Source of the DNA: Geobacillus kaustophilus
GTDB taxonomy: Bacteria; Bacillota; Bacilli; Bacillales; Anoxybacillaceae
Length of the DNA stretch: 64,000 bases
Direction of reading: 5' to 3'
Assembly: GCF_000948285.1 (NCBI RefSeq)
Contig: NZ_JYBP01000001.1
Span: forward strand, 1 to 64,000
In this document: one piece after another, positions 2,854 to 43,175 of the stretch
Position numbering within the stretch: the first letter of the stretch is position 1
Layout of the letters: every line of letters begins with the position of its first letter
The notes under the pieces: model-generated
The model's input: only the letters and a program-made list of their open reading frames with translations
Databases searched by the model: none
Told to the model about the DNA's origin: nothing
Program-made: the position numbers and the translations under genes

Positions 2854-4337
2854 GGTTCATCACCAAATTTTGTGATTTAGTGACAAAAAAGAGAAAGCAC
2901 TGACGAGATCCTGGCAATAATGTTAGCGGTGAAATAAACATTAAGGAGGTCTCGTAAGTGCTTTCTATACCACTAGGATTGCCAGAATTTAAAGTGATTA
3001 AACAAGAACTTCTTTCCTATGGTTATGCGATTCATGTAGAGAAAACAGAGACACAGGAACGTTGCCCTCATTGTGGGTTTGCCACTTCCTCTGTCCACGA
3101 CAGACGGACAAGAAAAGTACGGGATTTGGCGATTTTCCATCAACCGGTGTACTTGTTCATAAAGGTAAAGCGCTATCGGTGCTGGAATTGTTCTCAAGTG
3201 TTTTCCGCCTCTTTGGAATCGATTCCACCCAATCAACACTACACCAATCGATTTTGTGAGTACTTGTATGAACTTTGCGAAGGCTCCACCATTCAAGAGG
3301 TTAGCCGAAAGCACCGCATCCCATATACAACATTGGAACGCATTTATTACTCCATCGCATCGAAAAAAGCAAAAGAGCGTCAAACAGCGATAGAAGCATC
3401 TTCTCAAGAAGGAATGGTGCTTAGTTTAGATGAAATCGCTGTAAAAAAGGGACATCAGTATGAAACTGTATTGATGGATGCCAGAGCCGGATCGGTCATG
3501 GGAATGCATGCCGATCGCCAATGTGACTCCGCCATCAACTTGTTGAGCCAAAATATCCTGTCGAAAGAAATGGTCCAAACGGTGATTCTTGACATGTGGG
3601 AACCTTATCATAAGGCGGTTCGCGCCCTGTTTCCATCTGCTTCGATTGTCATCGATAAGTACCATGTGGTTCAAAAAGTGACACAAGCCTTGGATCAAGC
3701 AAGAAAGGAATTTTCTCCATTGAAAAAGGCTCGATATCTTCTCTTGAAAGGCTGTGAAAAGCTTCGTAAGGACCAACGGCTTCGATTAGACGATATCTTG
3801 GAGGAGTATCCGGCACTTTCCATTGCTTATTATCTGAAAGAGTTGTTTCGGGATTTTTACCGAACCGATGGATATCATGAAGCAAAGGAACGCTTGGAAG
3901 AATGGATTAAGTTAGCCAAACAGAGCCCTTTTGCTTCTTTTCAGAAAGCAGCCAACACGCTTGAAAGGTGGAAGGAGCCTATTCTTTCCTACTTTTTGTG
4001 CCCATATACGAATGCCCGAATTGAGGGGACGAATCACAAGATCAAAAACATCAAACGCCGGGCATATGGCTATCGAAATCTAGAACGGTTTCGTTTGCGT
4101 GTATTTCTGGAGTGTACAGGGAACACTACAGGCAGTCAGGCTGCTTAAGCGCTCCCTTCTTCCGCTATCGGTATGATAGTTGGTAGAATGGAACCCGTCA
4201 AGGAAAGCACTTGACTGTTTCCATTCTACCAACTTCGTGGTCTGTATGCGGAAGAAGGATCCTGACTGATGAACCTATTTCATCCAGCTAACATGTCTCT
4301 AGGATTGAGTAGAAATCACAGAAAATGGTGAAGACCC
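2854..4337 (+). mobile_element. ISL3-family insertion sequence, copy 2 (1484 bp)
   Basis: It has the same ends and length as copy 1 and is flanked by a different 8-bp target duplication, ATATTTTC (2846-2853 and 4338-4345). The distinct duplications show two independent insertions rather than one duplicated segment. It lies between the tRNA upstream region and the 3' end of the sprT-like gene. Confidence 0.95.
2958..4148 (+). CDS. ISL3-family transposase, copy 2
   Basis: This 396-residue transposase starts with GTG behind AAGGAGGT, with the same zinc-ribbon, DDE and C-terminal motifs as copy 1. It is apparently intact. The near identity of the two copies suggests recent transposition in this lineage. 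Confidence 0.95.
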   Translation: MLSIPLGLPEFKVIKQELLSYGYAIHVEKTETQERCPHCGFATSSVHDRRTRKVRDLAIFHQPVYLFIKVKRYRCWNCSQVFSASLESIPPNQHYTNRFCEYLYELCEGSTIQEVSRKHRIPYTTLERIYYSIASKKAKERQTAIEASSQEGMVLSLDEIAVKKGHQYETVLMDARAGSVMGMHADRQCDSAINLLSQNILSKEMVQTVILDMWEPYHKAVRALFPSASIVIDKYHVVQKVTQALDQARKEFSPLKKARYLLLKGCEKLRKDQRLRLDDILEEYPALSIAYYLKELFRDFYRTDGYHEAKERLEEWIKLAKQSPFASFQKAANTLERWKEPILSYFLCPYTNARIEGTNHKIKNIKRRAYGYRNLERFRLRVFLECTGNTTGSQAA

Positions 4338-20076: not shown

Positions 20077-21150
20077 TTGCGAAAGAAAATCATCTTAACC
20101 GGCGGCGGCACGGCCGGCCATGTCATGGTCAACGTCGCCCTGATTCCAAAATTGAAAGAGCTTGGGTGGGATATCGTATACATCGGATCTCATCAAGGGA
20201 TTGAACGGGAGATTATCGGCCGCATCGACGGCGTCCCGTACTATTCGGTTTCGACCGGAAAACTGCGTCGCTATTTTGACTGGAAAAACTTTAAAGATCC
20301 GTTTCACGTGTTAAAAGGCGTTTGGCAGGCGTACCGCCTTATCCAAAAAGAAAAACCGGACGTCGTCTTCTCAAAAGGAGGATTCGTCTCCGTTCCCGTC
20401 ATTCTCGGCGCTTGGCTAAACGGCGTGCCGTCGATTATCCATGAATCTGACTTAACCCCGGGGCTTGCGAACAAAATCGCCATGCCGTTTGCGACAAAAA
20501 TCTGCCTCACCTTCCCGGAAACGAGGCAATACGTCAATGCCGATAAAGCCGTCTATGTCGGCGCCGTCGTCCGCGAAGAGTTGAAGGATGGCAACGCCGA
20601 ACAAGGGAGGAAGATGTGCCAGTTCGACGGAAAAAAACCGGTCTTGCTAGCGATGGGCGGCAGCTTAGGCTCGAAAAAAATCAACGACGCCTTGCGCGCC
20701 AACCTATCGACGCTTCTGGCCGAATTTGACATCATCCACATTTGCGGCAAAGGGAACATCGACCCAAGCCTCGCAGGCCAAAAAGGATACAAACAGTTCG
20801 AATACGTCAACGAAGAGCTGCCCCACTTACTCGCCTTGGCCGACATCGTCGTCTCCCGCGCCGGGGCGAACGCCATTTTCGAACTGCTCGCCTTGCGCAA
20901 GCCGATGCTGCTCATTCCGCTGTCCAAAGCGGCGAGCCGCGGCGACCAAATCCTAAACGCCCGCTCGTTTGAAAAAGCAGGCTATGCGGAAGTGCTGATG
21001 GAAGAGGATTTAACGAACGAATCGCTACAAGCCGCCATTCGCCGCCTGTACGACCAAAAAGACCGTTACCGGAAAAACATGGATAAAGCCGGCGCGTGCG
21101 ATCCGCTGCAAACGCTGCTTGCGATCATTCAAGACACCGCCCGCCGGTAA
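20077..21150 (+). CDS. MurG-like UDP-GlcNAc transferase (second-type MurG)
   Basis: A 357-residue GT28 enzyme with the MurG features: N-terminal [15 protein letters not shown] loop, lipid-binding region, [28 protein letters not shown], and the donor motif [14 protein letters not shown]. The expected reaction adds GlcNAc to lipid I to make lipid II. It stands alone rather than in the dcw cluster, so it is probably a MurG paralog, as seen in Bacillaceae, rather than the main enzyme. Start TTG behind AGGTGA. Confidence 0.85.
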
Positions 21151-21579: not shown

Positions 21580-21723
21580 TGAAAAAACAAAAGCAGCTCA
21601 AAAACGTCCCTTCTCAAGTTGAGAAATCAACACCATCTCATCTTTCAATTAGCTCAACCGGAACCCCGAAACTGTGGTCAGCCAAAATGGAGGAAACAGC
21701 ATCCCGTTCCGCCTTTGTATGAT
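21580..21723 (+). CDS. Possible 47-residue small ORF
   Basis: ATG behind AAGGACGGTGA opens a 47-codon frame beginning MKKQKQLKNVPSQVEKST. Its 3' part overlaps the convergent small membrane-protein gene at 21638. Not recognised; it could be a chance frame following the 23-residue ORF. Confidence 0.2.
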
Positions 21724-22012
21724 AAACAATGCGGATGAGCGCTTCATCTGCATGATCTCCGCACGGTGCCCCCACCTTCACGCTTACTCCCTTCCCCACG
21801 TTCTCCAAGCGAGCCACGAGATCCCGGTGCTGACTCAATGCGCGTCTCACCTCCGATTGGCTCGGCAGTTTTCCGCATTCGGGACGAGCAAATTCCTGTT
21901 TGCCTGGAAACGGGATGAGCGACAAACCAATCCCCCCTCCCGCTACTAAAAATCCGCCGACCAACACAATGGCAACGCCAATGCCCCACCATCGTTTTTT
22001 CGCCATCTTCAT
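21638..22012 (-). CDS. Small membrane-anchored protein of the bacteriocin locus
   Basis: A 124-residue protein with an N-terminal membrane segment (about residues 7-30, rich in Gly and Val) and an extracytoplasmic domain with two cysteines (C near 43 and 84). The family is not recognised. It follows the ABC ATPase by 16 bp in one operon with the bacteriocin exporter genes, so an immunity or accessory role is an inference. I start at MKMAKKRWW behind AGAAGGGGGG. Confidence 0.7.
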   Translation of the reverse strand: MKMAKKRWWGIGVAIVLVGGFLVAGGGIGLSLIPFPGKQEFARPECGKLPSQSEVRRALSQHRDLVARLENVGKGVSVKVGAPCGDHADEALIRIVYHTKAERDAVSSILADHSFGVPVELIER

Positions 22013-22028
22013 TCGTCCCCCCTTCTCC

Positions 22029-22682
22029 TCATCTACCATGTCGCATTCCCTTTAGCGCATGCTCGGCATGGGCAGCGCGCATCATTTTCTCATCGTGGGT
22101 CGCGACAATGACCGTTCTCCCTTGCTTCGCCAATAATTGAAGGAGCTCAATGACGCGATCTCCATTGGCCTCATCAAGAGAAGCCGTCGGCTCATCAGCA
22201 AAAATGACTTGTGCATCTTTATAGAGAGCGCGTGCAATCGCCAAACGCCGTTTTTCTCCTCCACTCAGACGGGCGGCCAATTCTCGTTCTCTTCCATCCA
22301 ACCCCGTTTCCGATAACACTTTGCGCACCCGCTCCTCGTCCCCTACAACTTTAGAGCGAAACAAACTCGAAGTCATCGTGACATTAAACGCGACAGATTC
22401 TTCCTCAATAATTCCGTAATCTTGGAGAATGAATGCCGCATGGTTTTTCCAAAACAGACGACGTTGCTTAGCTCCCCAACTGGTTGTATCAACACCATCA
22501 ATCAATACACGCCCGCTTGTCGGCCGCAAAAGCAATGCAAGCACATGGAGAAGCGTCGTTTTGCCCGCTCCGCTTGGACCGACAAGCGCCGTCAAGGCTC
22601 CAGGAGAGCATATGACACTTTCATTTTCCATAATCGTTCGCTCATTGATGGTCATCGTCACTTGATTGGCTTCAATCCTCAT
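22029..22682 (-). CDS. ABC transporter ATP-binding protein of the bacteriocin locus
   Basis: A 217-residue ATPase with Walker A GPSGAGKTT, Q-loop LQDYG, signature LSGGEKRRLAIARAL, Walker B VIFADEPTASLD and the H-loop ATHD. It belongs to the MacB/LolD-like subgroup found beside DUF1430-type integral membrane proteins in lactococcin-972 loci. The start is ATG MRIEANQV behind AAGGAGGAG, 25 bp after the permease stop. Probable role: self-protection or export together with the 660-residue permease. Confidence 0.9.
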   Translation of the reverse strand: MRIEANQVTMTINERTIMENESVICSPGALTALVGPSGAGKTTLLHVLALLLRPTSGRVLIDGVDTTSWGAKQRRLFWKNHAAFILQDYGIIEEESVAFNVTMTSSLFRSKVVGDEERVRKVLSETGLDGRERELAARLSGGEKRRLAIARALYKDAQVIFADEPTASLDEANGDRVIELLQLLAKQGRTVIVATHDEKMMRAAHAEHALKGMRHGR

Positions 22683-22707
22683 TGCAGTCGACTCCTCCTT
22701 TTTCTTT

Positions 22708-24690
22708 CTACAACTGGCGCAGGGAATTTTTCGCAAACACCCAAGCTGCCGCACCAATATGTACGAACGGCAAAGCAAGCAGCACAAGCGCCCCCGTTAG
22801 ACCGACCGGCAACCAGCCGTTTGCTCCTTGAAATAGCATAATCAGCATCACCACGATCCCCCCTAACACCCACTCTTTCACGATTCGCCCGCGCGACACC
22901 GCCCACCAAGATGCCCCAGCAAGACGAAGCGGGAAATCGCGCTTTGCCTTTAACACGGCCATAATAAACGCGCTAATGGTCGCGGCAATGGCCAAGGCTG
23001 CCAAAAGAGCAACGATCGATCCAGCTCTAAGCCACACAAAATAGGCATAAAGCTGCGCGCGCAAAATTCCTTCCTCCGCCATATAGTTGACGCGGATCCG
23101 GTTCTGAAGGCCGCGTTCAGATACGAGTTTCTGTGTTTCCTCTAATCCGACAAAACTCAACTCCGACGAGGAAGCAACAGAGATCAAAAAATTGTCGTTG
23201 AACAATGCATGGACATGAGGTGCAAACAACAATAACACGTCCTTCGGCTGGGCAAACTCAAGTTGCCCGCCAAAGCGGACAAATGGAAAAAGGGACGATC
23301 CGGTCAAACGATACATCTTGACCTCATGCCATATGTTTCTTGCCTGCTGCTGCTTTCTTACATATAATGGAATTGAGGATTCCAGAAATTTTTTCGCATC
23401 CTTTGGAATCTGCTCCAGCGCAAGAGGAACCAAAGACAGTCCTTTGTTCTTCTTGCGAACGATATCCAGCCATCGCTCATTCACCATAATAACGTAACGG
23501 TACGGCGCAATGGTCATACCATCGATGGCGAAATCGTCTTCCGTCCACGCTTTCGATAACACCACGCGATTGGCGGTCTCCGCTTGTCGAACCATGTCCC
23601 CGACCGATGGTTGCAACGTCTGAAATAACTGCTCGATTTCCGCTCCCCCGGCGCTCCCCGGACGGGACGGGAACACCAACACCACTTGATCAGCCAACGA
23701 CTTCCACATGACTTGTTCCTGTGCCGTTTTTCTTGCATTTGTATAAGCTGAAACCGCCGGTGAGACAGTGGAAAGGACGAAAGCAAATACAGCTAGTTTC
23801 AACGCGGCCGAACTTTTGGCCAAACGCTTGACAGCGGGCTCGCGCATCGCTAACATCTCTGGATTCGGCCATGAGGCAATAGAAAATATCAACGCGCAAA
23901 CCAGTGTCGAGAAGATCACCATCGCCTCAGCCAAAAGCAATACTTTACTATAGTAAGGCACGAATCCCCATCCATAGACAAAACCGACATAAAGAGCTGC
24001 CAAGACGTCCAATATGGCGGCGGCGAGAACCATAGCCAGTAAAAAGTGACTGAAATCCTCACACTGGATGCGCCACGTCGGAACTCCCGCCAACACACGC
24101 AACGCACGCCCTTTCGCCTTGACAGCCAGCCAATACAAGGCTAACGACACCATCAACATCGAAACGGCCAATAGCGCTACACCGAAATCGCTTTGCATGA
24201 TCAAAAATTCGAGAATGGTCAACAGTGTTTCTTCGCTCCATTTCTGATCGACTCGATGTGACGTCAGCCAATGTTTCAACTCGTCTATATGATCGGTTTT
24301 CCCTGTCACCAAATAATCGCCATTGGCAAACGAATGGGCCAACGCGCGGCGATCGCGGATCTCCGCATCCGGCTCATGGCCAAAACGCTCGATTCGCTTC
24401 GGAAATGCCCCTTTCTGTCCCACTTGAACGAAGATCTGCCCTGACTGATCCCCCCGTAAATCGGGCGCGACTTTCATCAATCCCAATTCCCATTGATCGC
24501 TCATCGCACCCAACTGTTGAAACACATCTTCCTGACGCAAATCAGACTGGCTAAAATCCAATGTCACTTTCGCTTTCACACCCAGCTGCTCAGGAAAAAA
24601 TCGGTCATGGATATCCGAAACAACGACCGCCACCAAAGCTAAGAGAAGAAACTGCACAGCGGAAACAGCGATCACGATTTTTTTATGCAT
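22708..24690 (-). CDS. Bacteriocin-associated integral membrane protein (DUF1430-like ABC permease)
   Basis: About 660 residues. One N-terminal transmembrane helix is followed by an extracytoplasmic domain (about 35-165) and a block of four helices (about 170-310). A second large extracytoplasmic region comes next, then three C-terminal helices in an FtsX-like arrangement (AAIAATISAFIMAVLKAKRDF...). This layout fits the integral membrane proteins encoded with lactococcin-972-type bacteriocins. It lies between the precursor gene and its ATPase. The start is either ATG at 24690 (better spaced from AAAGGA) or 24699. Confidence 0.8.
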   Translation of the reverse strand: MHKKIVIAVSAVQFLLLALVAVVVSDIHDRFFPEQLGVKAKVTLDFSQSDLRQEDVFQQLGAMSDQWELGLMKVAPDLRGDQSGQIFVQVGQKGAFPKRIERFGHEPDAEIRDRRALAHSFANGDYLVTGKTDHIDELKHWLTSHRVDQKWSEETLLTILEFLIMQSDFGVALLAVSMLMVSLALYWLAVKAKGRALRVLAGVPTWRIQCEDFSHFLLAMVLAAAILDVLAALYVGFVYGWGFVPYYSKVLLLAEAMVIFSTLVCALIFSIASWPNPEMLAMREPAVKRLAKSSAALKLAVFAFVLSTVSPAVSAYTNARKTAQEQVMWKSLADQVVLVFPSRPGSAGGAEIEQLFQTLQPSVGDMVRQAETANRVVLSKAWTEDDFAIDGMTIAPYRYVIMVNERWLDIVRKKNKGLSLVPLALEQIPKDAKKFLESSIPLYVRKQQQARNIWHEVKMYRLTGSSLFPFVRFGGQLEFAQPKDVLLLFAPHVHALFNDNFLISVASSSELSFVGLEETQKLVSERGLQNRIRVNYMAEEGILRAQLYAYFVWLRAGSIVALLAALAIAATISAFIMAVLKAKRDFPLRLAGASWWAVSRGRIVKEWVLGGIVVMLIMLFQGANGWLPVGLTGALVLLALPFVHIGAAAWVFAKNSLRQL

Positions 24691-24735
24691 GAGCCTCATT
24701 CCTTTCCTAATCCATCATCCGTCGGGAAGAGAAAG

Positions 24736-24759
24736 ACCCCATCCCGCTCGGGAAGGGGT
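24736..24759 (-). terminator. Attenuator-like hairpin between bacteriocin and permease genes
   Basis: Minus-strand ACCCC-T-TCCCG / CGGGA-T-GGGGT pairs into a GC-rich stem followed by CTTTCTCTT. It could trim transcription so that the precursor is made in excess over the transporter, or act as an mRNA 3' stabiliser. Confidence 0.6.
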
Positions 24760-24789
24760 GAAAGAAAAGCTTCCAGTCAAACAGATTCA

Positions 24790-25161
24790 CTATTTGCAAA
24801 TTCTATAATAATAGGCGTCATCGGACCACGGAAAATTAAGAGCCCCTTTCTCAGCAGCAGAGGTCAATCCTGGTGGGGTATCAACACTTCGTAGCATCTC
24901 ACCATTGTATACAACTGTTGAACCGTGGCACGAATTCGGATGATAGTAGTAGGAGCGAACCATAGCATTCCAGAAGCCATATGTCCATTTTCCTCCCTCA
25001 ATTGGATATTGGACGGTAGGACCTGGATGCAACCACGCTGCAGCTTGATTTGGGTTTATTAAGCCAAAAGCGATGATGGAAAGCATCAACACACCAGCCA
25101 ATGTCATGACCTTTCGCAAAAGTATATGGACGGTTTTAGGCGAAGCAAGAATCCCAAACAT
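24790..25161 (-). CDS. Lactococcin-972-family bacteriocin precursor
   Basis: The 123-residue secreted protein has a Sec signal peptide (hydrophobic residues 19-36, likely cleavage after NQAAA at 42). The mature part of about 81 residues shows the lactococcin-972 pattern: GGKWTYG at 56-62, Ser/Tyr-rich YYYHPNSCHGSTVV, and the C-terminal YYYRICK. Family members bind lipid II and block septum formation in sensitive cells. Two cysteines (78 and 122) could form a disulfide; the original lactococcin 972 lacks cysteine as I remember it. The start ATG follows AAAGGGGGA. The downstream exporter/immunity genes agree with this call. Confidence 0.85.
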   Translation of the reverse strand: MFGILASPKTVHILLRKVMTLAGVLMLSIIAFGLINPNQAAAWLHPGPTVQYPIEGGKWTYGFWNAMVRSYYYHPNSCHGSTVVYNGEMLRSVDTPPGLTSAAEKGALNFPWSDDAYYYRICK

Positions 25162-25282
25162 AAGTAATCCCCCTTTTATACTTCATGCTTTGATCCAACA
25201 CAAAGCGCCAATGATTGATGATATACGAATAGCCGGCCGGCTTCACATTTTACTTTAGCAAAATTACTCCCCGAAAACATCC

Positions 25283-25314
25283 GTATTTTCCACAAATTTC
25301 ATTGCGGAAAATAC
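25283..25314. promoter_or_regulatory. Inverted repeat, candidate operator of the bacteriocin gene
   Basis: Arms GTATTTTCC and GGAAAATAC are perfectly complementary, with 14 bp between them. The site lies about 120 bp upstream of the bacteriocin start and about 200 bp upstream of the regulator start. Confidence 0.5.
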
Positions 25315-25493
25315 CTATTTTTTGAAATTTAGTTTACTGAGATGGATATATATTGTAAAATTTTAATGGATTAGGCTGAGAGAGACGGCCTCATTGGACA
25401 AAACGGCACATCGTTCATCCCCCTGTAAAACTCCATCATTTTCCACAGCAACTCGTGTTTCAGCCAAATAAACAGCCACTCACAATGTTTTAC

Positions 25494-25503
25494 GGGGGGG
25501 GGG
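25494..25503 (+). repeat. G10 homopolymer tract upstream of the regulator
   Basis: Ten consecutive G lie immediately before AGGGAAG and the GTG start at 25516. Such tracts are prone to slippage and here would change the spacing between promoter and ribosome site, or the ribosome site itself. Confidence 0.85.
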
Positions 25504-25515
25504 AGGGAAGAAATT

Positions 25516-26115
25516 GTGAAGATCAAAGTCCTGCTAGTGGACGATCATTGTCTTGTCATGGATGGCATCCGTCAGTTGCTGGAACGTGAGCTAGACTTGG
25601 AAGTGGTGGGCGCCGTTTCCTCTCCGACCGACTTGGAGCAGAAAATCGCTCAACATCAGCCTGACATTATTGTCATGGACATTCGCTTCAAAGGGAAAAA
25701 CGGCCTCCTTTGGACAAGGAAAATCTCATCATTATTTCCTGCATGCAAAGTCGTGATTTTGTCTCGATCTCATTGTCTGGAGTACATGAACGCCGCCTAC
25801 GAGGCAGGCGCCTATGCCTTTGTATCCGAACAAGACTCTGTCGAAACACTTATTCACGCCATTCGGGAAAGCCATCGAGGGGTGAAATCATTTCCGACCC
25901 ACCTCGTTTTCCATGATCGTTCGTCCCTAACCGAAATGGAGTTGGCTGTTCTCGAGCTCATTGCCCAAGACAAAACGAATATCGAAATTAGCGAACAATT
26001 AAACATCAGCAAACGAACCGTGGAGCACCACGTATCTTCCATTTTGCGAAAACTTGATGTAAAGTCGCGGGCAGGGGCGGTGGGAAAAGCCATCGAACTC
26101 GGATTGTTTGGATGA
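25516..26115 (+). CDS. NarL/LuxR-type response regulator (orphan)
   Basis: The 199-residue protein has a receiver domain (acidic pair D9/D10, phosphoacceptor D55 in IIVMDIRFKG) and a C-terminal LuxR-type helix-turn-helix (about 138-199, TNIEISEQLNISKRTVEHHVSSIL pattern). No histidine kinase is adjacent. It is divergent from the bacteriocin gene and is the obvious candidate regulator of that operon. Start GTG behind GGGAGGG; the preceding G10 tract may affect its expression. Confidence 0.9.
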   Translation: MKIKVLLVDDHCLVMDGIRQLLERELDLEVVGAVSSPTDLEQKIAQHQPDIIVMDIRFKGKNGLLWTRKISSLFPACKVVILSRSHCLEYMNAAYEAGAYAFVSEQDSVETLIHAIRESHRGVKSFPTHLVFHDRSSLTEMELAVLELIAQDKTNIEISEQLNISKRTVEHHVSSILRKLDVKSRAGAVGKAIELGLFG

Positions 26116-26420: not shown

Positions 26421-27242
26421 CTAGAAGTATAAGACATAAATGACAACGGCCAGCACGATCCGATACACCGCAAACGGCACGAGGCGGATGCGGTTGATGA
26501 GCTCAAGGAAAAAGCGGATCGCGAGCAAGGCGAAGACAAAGGCGCTCAAGAAGCCGGCGATGAAAAACGGGATATCGGCTGCGGTGACGTATTGCCAGTT
26601 TTTCAACAGCGACAGCCCGCTCGCCCCCGCCATGATCGGAACGGCCATAATGAACGTGAAATCAGCGGCGGCGCGATGGCTCATGCCGACAAGCACCCCG
26701 CCTGAGATCGTCGAGCCAGAGCGGGAAAAACCGGGCCATAGCGATAAACATTGCATCAAACCAACAAGAAACGCCTGCTTGTACGTAATTTCGTCGACCG
26801 TCTGCGCCCGCGCTGCTTTTTTGGCGAATTTGTCGGCGGCGATCATGAGCAGCGCGCCGAGCACAAGGCCGATCAGCACCGTTTTTGTCGAAAACAAATG
26901 TTCATCGATGTAATCTTCAAACAAGACGCCGAGCACCCCAGCCGGCAGCAGGCCAATGATGACGTGAATGAGCGTCAGCCGCGGATGCCCGCCCGGATGG
27001 CGGCCGCGAACGCCAAGCAAGTCGAGAAATCGGTCTTTAAACACGACCACAGCGGCTAAAATCGAGCCGAGCTGAATGACGACTTTAAATGTATTCGCCG
27101 CGTACTTGCCTAAAAACTCTGTGGATTTCAGCCAAAGATCGTCGACAATAATCATATGGCCGGTCGAGGAAACAGGGGCGAACTCGGTCAGCCCTTCGAC
27201 CATCCCTAAAATGATCGCCTTCCACAATTCCATCCAGTGCAT
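26421..27242 (-). CDS. uppP: Undecaprenyl-diphosphatase (BacA/UppP)
   Basis: The 273-residue polytopic membrane protein recycles undecaprenyl pyrophosphate to the monophosphate carrier for wall synthesis. Overproduction of such enzymes gives bacitracin resistance. The two family motifs are EGLTEFAPVSSTGHM (16-30) and PGFSRSGSTISGG, with the conserved Glu, Ser, His and Arg present. I start at MHWMELW behind AAGGATGGAAGG. Two 9-bp direct repeats lie in the promoter region. Confidence 0.95.
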   Translation of the reverse strand: MHWMELWKAIILGMVEGLTEFAPVSSTGHMIIVDDLWLKSTEFLGKYAANTFKVVIQLGSILAAVVVFKDRFLDLLGVRGRHPGGHPRLTLIHVIIGLLPAGVLGVLFEDYIDEHLFSTKTVLIGLVLGALLMIAADKFAKKAARAQTVDEITYKQAFLVGLMQCLSLWPGFSRSGSTISGGVLVGMSHRAAADFTFIMAVPIMAGASGLSLLKNWQYVTAADIPFFIAGFLSAFVFALLAIRFFLELINRIRLVPFAVYRIVLAVVIYVLYF

Positions 27243-27334
27243 GTCCTTCCATCCTTTCTGCGCGGGGTCGTCCTTTCTATACATATGGGCCAATCGGGTG
27301 GGATAACACTCCACTTTTGGCCACGCCTGCTCTA

Positions 27335-42281: not shown

Positions 42282-42700
42282 TCAACCGATTTTTCCTGTT
42301 AAGTAATAAACGGCAATTTGCGTTCGATGCTGCAGTCCGGTTTTGTCCAAAATCGATGTGATGTAATTGGCCACCGTTCCCTCAGAGAGAAATAGATGTT
42401 TGGCAATCTCTTTATTCGAAAGCCCTTTCGCAATGAGGGCCATAATGTCCAGCTCTCGTTCCGTAAACAAGCTTTTGTCGATTTTCACCGCTGGCTCTGT
42501 TTCTCCTTTTAGGTTGGACTTAATTTTATCCATCACGATATCTTGCATTACCACTTGGCCGTGATACACCGCTTTGATCGCTTCGCGGATTCGTTCCGGG
42601 TCCGTATTTTTTAAAAAATATCCTTTTGCGCCGTATTGAATGGCGTCTAGAATGTATTCATCATCATCAAACGTCGTCAAGATGGTGAATTGCGCAAGAC
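42282..42700 (-). pseudogene. NarL-type response regulator (LnrK-like), receiver truncated
   Basis: The remaining frame starts inside the fourth beta strand of the receiver (FTILTTFDDDEYI) and continues through the C-terminal LuxR helix-turn-helix (ERELDIMALIAKGLSNKEIAKHLFLS...). The first about 70-75 residues, including the phosphoacceptor Asp, are absent and no ribosome site precedes the fragment. The DNA abruptly becomes another regulator on the opposite strand at about 42690. Confidence 0.88.
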
Positions 42701-43175
42701 GAGCCGCGTTGGCATCATTATGGTCACAGCGAAAACAGAGGAAACTGACAAAATCATTGGCCTAGAGGTAGGAGCGGATGATTATATTACCAAACCTTTT
42801 TCACTGAGAGAACTGGCAGCCCGCATTCGCTCGGTATTGCGGCGAATGGAAGGGCAAAACAACCCGGAGAACATGATGAAACGCGGAGAATTGACCATTT
42901 CTGAAGAGCAATGCCGCGTATGGAAACGAGGAAATGAAATCGCCTTAACGCCGACCGAATTCAAGCTGTTGCTTACCCTAGCCGCAAAACCAGGTGTCGT
43001 CTATAGCCGTCTGCAGCTGTTGCAAAGCATTTTTGAAGATGATCTTTTCAACGACGAGCGAACCGTTGATGCTCATATCAGCCGTCTCCGCAAAAAGATT
43101 GAAGATGATCCGTCCCGTCCCATCTATATCCAAACTGTTTATGGATTCGGTTATCGTTTCGGTGAACAGATATGA
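42690..43175 (+). pseudogene. OmpR/PhoB-type response regulator, receiver truncated
   Basis: The frame begins at the fourth beta strand of a receiver (VGIIMVTAKTEETDKI), includes the conserved Lys in ITKPFS, then a complete winged-helix domain (LTPTEFKLLLTL ... YIQTVYGFGYRF). The N-terminal about 70 residues with the phosphorylated Asp are missing. It overlaps the following kinase gene by ATGA. Without the missing part it cannot be regulated normally by phosphorylation. Confidence 0.87.

Follow-up and report, generated by a model that had tools for sequence, protein, structure and literature searches.

A lactococcin-972-family bacteriocin locus with a probable orphan ComA-like regulator in Geobacillus kaustophilus

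The first 64,000 nucleotides (nt) of contig NZ_JYBP01000001.1 of Geobacillus kaustophilus (positions 1-64,000; hereafter the window, its genome being G000 in our comparisons) contain a bacteriocin locus in which the genes for a precursor peptide, a transporter and a small protein are divergent from a response regulator gene. All five genes that an earlier note on this DNA had described are present where it placed them. Their products, with lengths in amino acids (aa) and transporter subunits of the ATP-binding cassette (ABC) type, are as follows.

24790..25161, minus strand: lactococcin-972-family bacteriocin precursor, 123 aa, assigned by PF09683 and PDB 9hkj; the probable mature form starts at W43 (81 aa, two cysteines).
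22708..24699, minus strand: ABC permease, 663 aa, probable immunity or resistance transporter of a subfamily without DUF1430 match (our profile A2).
22029..22682, minus strand: ABC ATPase, 217 aa (ABC_tran, E 7.4e-30; best NCBIfam model TIGR03608).
21638..22012, minus strand: p124, 124 aa, candidate immunity accessory, with an N-terminal membrane anchor (by eye) and an alpha/beta domain.
25516..26115, plus strand: orphan response regulator of the NarL/FixJ type, read as ComA-like, with a GTG start (Response_reg and GerE domains).

The assignment of the precursor to the lactococcin-972 type is borne out by PF09683, for which it scores 51.2 bits against a curated cut-off of 22; it remains under the stricter TIGR01653 threshold (22.0 versus 32.1 bits). 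Its closest solved relative is PDB 9hkj, entitled 'Lactococcin 972 family bacteriocin' (E 9e-17), the chain of which begins at the residue aligned to W43, and the match to lactococcin 972 itself (PDB 2lgn) is weak (E 0.069). By eye, the N-terminus is a hydrophobic segment followed by AAA and W at residues 40-43. The GGxWxxG motif reads GGKWTYG; a YYYR is present near the end but is not the C-terminus that had been claimed, as ICK comes after it. The two cysteines expected in the mature peptide are C78 and C122 (36 and 80 counted from W43). Both are kept in the four intact close copies aligned (window, G018, G029 and G322), and two cysteines also occur in two of 16 other aligned family members (L115 and L123), where the last lies within one column of that of the window and the first at a different place. 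The suggestion that a disulfide would be a thermophile trait is not supported by this alignment, a comparison of sequences only. The AlphaFold model of the precursor is poor (mean predicted local distance difference test score, pLDDT, 48.9), and the fold of the precursor-permease intergenic region is no more stable than shuffles (z -0.07).

The permease has zero matches in Pfam and NCBIfam at E<=1, and hhalign gave a probability of 1.2% against one Macrococcus DUF1430 permease. The 'DUF1430-like' label of the earlier note therefore falls, DUF1430/TIGR01654 membership being ruled out by profile; a distant fold relation is still possible because the hhalign comparison used a single DUF1430 sequence. 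The ATPase was correctly called: its best NCBIfam model is that of the lactococcin 972 ABC protein, at 177.5 bits and under the cut-off of 254.85. As had been supposed, p124 belongs to no family in the Pfam and NCBIfam libraries. Its C46 and C84 are invariant in 13 aligned sequences, and a model built from a two-row alignment gives a confident alpha/beta domain over residues 41-124 (block-mean pLDDT 73-93; below 50 for residues 1-40), for which the best PDB match has E 0.088.

Comparisons were made in sets of 41 family genomes and 397 order genomes. The precursor is found in five of the 41: intact in G000, G018 and G029, frameshifted in G031 and as an 18-residue remnant in G019. Permease homologues occur in seven, p124 homologues in the same seven, with a deletion fusion in G024. 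The ratio of non-synonymous to synonymous substitution (dN/dS) between the window and G029 (G. zalihae) is 0.19 for the precursor, 0.16 for the permease, 0.08 for the ATPase, 0.11 for p124 and 0.24 for the regulator. This recurrence of permease and p124 and these low ratios argue that the locus is more than a product of chance. The four genes from precursor to p124 co-occur elsewhere, intact, in G018, G029 and G322. No near match of the operon is held by 72,556 plasmid records, and a protein search of these with the precursor matched seven, every one below 60% identity.

The regulator is divergent from the precursor and of the NarL type, and the neighbouring open reading frames (ORFs), by reading, hold no kinase gene, in agreement with its description as an orphan. 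At a cut-off of E<=1e-50, homologues were found in 18 of the 41 family genomes, five being the Geobacillus orphans G000, G018, G019, G024 and G029. In seven of the 13 others (G005, G012, G013, G015, G028, G030, G031) the regulator, by reading, ends a row of four open genes together with comX-like, ComQ-like and ComP-like kinase genes, comX standing before comQ; in G003, G004, G011, G017 and G033 the com parts are broken, missing or ended by a contig edge, and G039 has a truncated regulator only. Nine comX-like ORFs are intact overall, encoding 54-56 aa from ATG with Trp-Val or Trp-Leu at the C-terminus. In the operon of G012 the ComQ-like protein matches PF00348 (5.2e-14) and the ComP-like kinase HATPase_c (1.8e-12), with HisKA_3 at just 0.005. 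The window regulator is 53-63% identical to the regulators of these comXQPA-like operons and their remnants, and it is this operon context that makes it ComA-like, the plain sequence link to ComA being weak.

No close ComQ or ComP was found in the window genome: one ComQ-like query gave no match at E<=0.01, and one ComP-like query just two kinase-domain matches, of 33% and 26% identity. ComQ was likewise not found in G018, G019 and G024. No comX-like frame was found between the palindrome described below and the regulator in the window, a genome-wide comX search not having been made. Both G029 and G017 carry a distant second ComQ/ComP pair; in G029 (L158:2534-7117) the ComQ/ComP-like pair and a regulator ORF are followed by a 132-aa exported-looking protein.

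Between the precursor and the regulator lies a palindrome, flanked by the following elements.

25283..25314, no strand: 32-bp palindrome GTATTTTCCACAAATTTCATTGCGGAAAATAC, predicted to be the binding site of the regulator from its recurrence beside regulator homologues.
25333..25361, plus strand: com-side promoter-like element TTTACT-17-TAAAAT before the regulator, by consensus match only.
25252..25257, minus strand: cassette-side -10-like element TAAAGT with TGC before it, 25 nt from the palindrome, from a by-eye alignment of cassette-side promoters.
25232..25241, minus strand: leader element GCCGGCCGGC, from the cassette-side alignment.

The palindrome had a mean of 0.00 occurrences in shuffles of the window. 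Its core, at one mismatch or fewer, is found in 17 of the 41 family genomes, all 17 with a regulator homologue. The regulator without the palindrome is seen in one genome (G039) and the reverse in no genome, while 23 have neither (Fisher 1.2e-10, uncorrected for shared ancestry). Looser matches with two mismatches in the regulator-free G008, G009, G032 and G040 were left out of this count. Among the 397 order genomes, 13 have the palindrome at one mismatch or fewer: ten in the family, G322, G143 and G352, in the last of which the match falls inside a long ORF and looks unrelated. A scan of genome_contigs (84,980 species by description) for the exact core returned 12 stretches, with titles all of Geobacillus or Anoxybacillus; it was not exhaustive, as the exact-core sites of G004, G005, G028, G031 and G033 are missing from its results.

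The palindrome is oriented. On the cassette side GGAT comes after it in 23 of 26 cases (exceptions L020, L061:2938 and L064), and CCGG within the next 70 nt in 19 of 26; of 17 com sides, 16 have CTATTTT or CCATTTT after it and 13 have TGTAAAAT. The region contains nine promoter-like elements (6.1 in shuffles), and the stability of a leader hairpin before the regulator is not above that of shuffles (z 0.51). The half-sites share TTGCGG/CCGCAA with the ComA sites of Bacillus subtilis, one half being TTGTGG in the window.

The genes flanking 27 palindrome sites in 17 genomes were surveyed. The com side holds the regulator at five sites, a comX-like ORF at nine, com remnants at two and none of these at 11. 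On the cassette side there are 21 intact first ORFs and three remnants (a frameshifted precursor at L019, a permease only at L020 and an ATPase fragment at L061:2938), the remaining three sites having no first ORF (L060:13566, L064 and L067, ABC-sized ORFs starting some 360 nt off at L067). The intact first ORFs are of eleven sequence types: the lactococcin peptide, a 125/132-aa peptide with GTxYDDYDVIVP, a 133/153-aa peptide, a DUF2712 protein, a 67-aa leaderless-looking peptide and proteins of 138, 171, 211, 223, 245 and 245/259 aa. Many have ABC-type ORFs downstream. Export signals were judged by eye; the 223-aa protein looks anchored and is not a small peptide. For seven of the peptide types no Pfam family scored above cut-off; new bacteriocin families may be among them.

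Some of these cassettes deserve separate description. The DUF2712 protein at L061:6951-7388 (PF10916 4e-39, at L061 only) and its homologue at L063:3621-4046 form palindrome-flanked cassettes with ABC-like ORFs after them, which suggests a secreted antimicrobial role for this family without assigned function. The 67-aa peptide without visible leader heads a palindrome-flanked ABC-like cassette at L060:3145-3348 and L066:3032-3235; that of L066 matches nothing in NCBIfam and, in Pfam, nothing above cut-off. In G031, about 30 kb (loci L056 and L057) between uppP and a murG-like fragment hold several exported-peptide cassettes in tandem, three of which have a palindrome of their own, with transposase-looking ORFs in between.

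The bacteriocin locus occupies a slot between two genes.

20077..21150, plus strand: murG-like gene, left flank (Glyco_transf_28 domains).
26421..27314, minus strand: uppP (BacA family), right flank (PF02673 5.5e-78).

The order in G033 is mntP-like, spo0M-like, uppP, comA, comP, palindrome, cassettes and murG-like; that in the window is mntP-like, spo0M-like, two other genes, uppP, regulator, palindrome, lactococcin cassette and murG-like, where mntP and spo0M are what we take the neighbours to be. Orientation of uppP, regulator, cassette and murG-like gene is the same in both, and the murG-like gene flanking the island of G033 is 77% identical to that of the window. An uppP homologue stands beside comA or the com operon in G033, G031 and G030, and a murG-like gene near the com operon in G011 and G012. 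The window regulator starts 201 nt from the palindrome, the comX genes of relatives at 71-87 nt. The best reading of this synteny is that the window lineage lost comX, comQ and comP from their position between the com promoter and comA. The orphan regulators (those of G000, G018, G019, G024, G029 and G322) form one clade with support 100/100, and a single loss of the com genes fits this. The orphan set in G019, G024 and G029 sits outside the uppP-murG slot, next to other genes, presumably mobA-like and radical-SAM genes.

Beyond the family, the precursor, permease and p124 of G322 are 89%, 87% and 88% identical to those of the window, and G322 also has the ATPase ORF, an orphan regulator and the palindrome at 0 mismatches to the core. 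This locus likely came by horizontal transfer; assembly contamination is possible. In G143, of a third family, one side of the palindrome has a regulator of 49% identity with no com genes next to it, and the other a bacteriocin-like cluster that opens with a 228-aa ORF, after which come a 61-aa peptide resembling circular bacteriocins (TIGR03651 E 0.078, below cut-off) and ABC-like ORFs. Beside the same regulator, L157:3415-3618 encodes a 67-aa peptide with repeated LGEEGG-type motifs, adjoining ORFs of 320 and 364 aa; this looks like a graspetide cluster.

The receivers of the orphans have changed. The acidic pair, the phospho-acceptor Asp, the Ser and the Lys are kept in each of the 12 com-associated regulators whose sequence spans this part, even where the com genes are broken (the truncated G039 regulator was left out of this count), while five of the six orphans are altered in one key residue and only G018 keeps all. 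The first Asp of the acidic pair is Gly in G019, G024, G029 and G322. Since the orphans share ancestry, these changes represent few independent events. The helix-turn-helix (HTH) segment RTVEHHVSSILRKL is identical in all six. The orphan regulator may thus have gained activation without phosphorylation, or have reduced activity, and cross-talk from another NarL-type kinase is possible.

From the gene content, the conservation of the palindrome, the synteny and the absence of a close ComQ or ComP, we consider it probable that the locus is a bacteriocin cassette of a quorum-sensing regulon, of which the ComA-like regulator was orphaned by loss of the pheromone and kinase genes. In this scheme, which sequence comparison suggests, the window locus would be one cassette of a family-wide regulon. 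In relatives, the comX-comQ-comP-comA-like operon would make and sense a pheromone with a prenylated Trp, and the ComA-like regulator would bind the oriented palindrome, activating the com promoter to one side of it and, to the other, a cassette for an exported peptide. Loss of comX, comQ and comP between the com promoter and comA would, in the lineage of the window, have left the bacteriocin under an orphan regulator acting without phosphorylation or through another NarL-family kinase; that it still drives the bacteriocin is suggested by the persistence of the regulator, its promoter and the palindrome. The presumed killing peptide would be exported by Sec, and the unit of permease, ATPase and p124 would guard the producer. 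More tentatively, and with slightly less than an even chance of being right in full, we picture a chromosomal island of bacteriocin exchange in Anoxybacillaceae, in which structurally unrelated antimicrobial cassettes share one quorum circuit through the oriented palindrome-promoter module, and from which a Geobacillus clade shed signal and receptor, leaving a signal-independent ComA that moved between families with its bacteriocin.

Several observations weigh against this interpretation. The hexamers of the palindrome face outward over 6 nt, inside a longer palindrome, unlike the TTGCGG-4-CCGCAA arrangement of B. subtilis given in passages of PMC4797271, with which the hexamer is common; because of this difference, the ComA-like assignment by context does not imply use of the published motif. 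Among PDB entries the window regulator is closest to DesR and VraR, and for an operon copy the B. subtilis ComA chains come far down the list (2krf 2.5e-7, 3ulq 4.2e-7). The two ComX candidates tested had no PF05952 match at E<=1. The co-occurrence of palindrome and regulator is seen among relatives and is in part positional. The window regulator has Glu near residue 104, where G018 and the 12 com-associated homologues have Lys, and may therefore be impaired. As to immunity, two of the 15 order genomes with p124 lack the permease (G252, and G233 with a weak broken match), and a distant precursor missed by PF09683 may lie beside the stand-alone transporter units considered below.

It is quite unlikely, in our estimate, that an ordinary lactococcin-972 operon merely adjoins an unrelated NarL-type regulator, with the palindrome acting as a bidirectional terminator or as the site of another factor. 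The palindrome is terminator-like by score (the region has nine such sites where shuffles give 7.4), and taken alone it is not rare, given four other exact 9-14-9 palindromes of different sequence elsewhere in the window. As a terminator, however, it would be misplaced, since both genes point away from it and need no terminator there, and GGATG follows it on the bacteriocin side. Its presence in 17 of 18 genomes with a regulator homologue and in none of 23 without one also speaks for a link to the regulator, as does its position beside bacteriocin-like cassettes far from the regulator gene (the lactococcin remnant of G031, and contig 1 of G024). The substitutions in the orphan receivers, five of six against none of 12 com-associated homologues, together with a precursor that is frameshifted, reduced to a remnant or absent in G031, G019, G017 and G024, would fit a regulator that is decaying and controls nothing in a locus disappearing after the loss of comX, comQ and comP. 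We regard this as unlikely, because the five window genes are all open, with dN/dS of 0.08-0.24 against G029, the HTH segment is the same in every orphan and the whole set is present in G322 of another family.

The most likely role of the permease-ATPase-p124 unit is self-protection, in that it would hold the peptide away from the producer's envelope, and p124, as had been proposed, is a candidate for a role in immunity. Profile A2 matches 13 of the 397 order genomes and the p124 profile 15, p124 being present in all 13 with the permease. The precursor adjoins the unit in five of these 13 (G000, G018, G029, G300 and G322), the other eight having no adjacent bacteriocin. A role of the unit in export or maturation of the bacteriocin, with p124 a helper and no immunity involved, is quite unlikely: the precursor looks Sec-exported, and its lactococcin-972-like counterpart streptococcin B is secreted without ComAB or BlpAB, according to passages of PMC11796350. 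Moreover, G017, G019 and G031 retain an open unit while lacking an intact precursor, and in five genomes (G060, G174, G199, G271 and G249) it stands behind two-component genes with no adjacent PF09683 gene. In the first four, an ATPase-p124-permease unit comes after one type of regulator and kinase, confirmed by Pfam as OmpR-type and HisKA for G060 only; a different kinase and regulator, by size and reading, precede it in G249, and the locus of G262 ends at a contig edge. Such a stand-alone, sensor-linked transporter has the look of a peptide-resistance module, which favours immunity over export. Taken as loci, L143-L148 show the ATPase-p124-permease order without a bacteriocin beside it, five of the six directly behind two-component-type genes and the sixth meeting a contig end.

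The window locus resembles the lactococcin 972 family in its PF09683 core, GGxWxxG motif and hydrophobic leader, and in the order of precursor, membrane protein and ABC ATPase. It differs in a precursor under the TIGR01653 cut-off, a permease that is not DUF1430 by profile, two cysteines and an orphan ComA-like regulator; p124 stands where a Macrococcus locus has a YxeA-family protein. A 123-aa PF09683 peptide is reported from 15 of 24 Parageobacillus genomes (PMC11270796), in the passages of which on this peptide no regulator, operator or com operon is mentioned with it. The census of ComQXPA (PMC4008528) predicts loci in Geobacillus and Anoxybacillus, in a non-B. subtilis clade, and describes ComX as extremely variable save a tryptophan near the C-terminus. 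In the parts concerned, its four gene types and variable ComX with C-terminal Trp are shared by the operons described here, which differ in having comX ahead of comQ, a palindrome that marks bacteriocin-like cassettes as well and, in the window, comA as the sole com gene kept; the word 'bacteriocin' has 0 occurrences in the text of the census.

Links between quorum sensing and bacteriocins are known from other systems. Genes for ComX (PF05952) lie close to class II lanthipeptide clusters in 22 genomes, Geobacillus thermodenitrificans included (PMC12715929); that case concerns lanthipeptides and PF05952-type ComX, and the relevant passages give no operator, lactococcin 972 link or orphan regulator. 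Pneumococcal streptococcin B is under ComE quorum sensing via a regulator site in its promoter, and strains without the peptide retain the B and C genes, as stated in part of PMC11796350. Regulator class and pheromone are different there, and one promoter has the site, whereas here many unrelated cassettes share one. A survey of Geobacillus bacteriocins (PMC6160750) contains 0 occurrences of 'lactococcin 972', 'quorum' and 'comx'. No work linking lactococcin 972, Geobacillus and ComA-type control was recognised in search listings, most subscription literature being outside their scope, nor was any that describes the operator, a regulon of such cassettes or an orphaned regulator of this kind, judged from listings and with the operator sequence itself not searched.

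The proposed operator is a searchable sequence that connects bacteriocin-like cassettes of thermophiles with ComQXPA-type signalling and points to several exported-peptide cassettes without known family; if the exchange-island reading is true, DUF2712 proteins would be secreted antimicrobials under quorum control. Full com operon, orphan regulator and transporter without bacteriocin form a natural series for following how the signal drops out while the weapon, or only the immunity, stays. A 2024 paper states, in the part concerned, that immunity function is unverified in any lactococcin-972-like locus (PMC11796350), and the transporter-p124 unit is a concrete candidate for it.

Elsewhere in the window, two 396-aa ORFs at 1233-2423 and 2958-4148 are identical over the 110 residues shown and look like tandem transposase copies. 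At 42282-43175, response-regulator-like ORFs of the NarL type (minus strand) and OmpR type (plus strand) abut, both seemingly short at the N-terminus, an arrangement that a deletion joining two two-component loci might leave.

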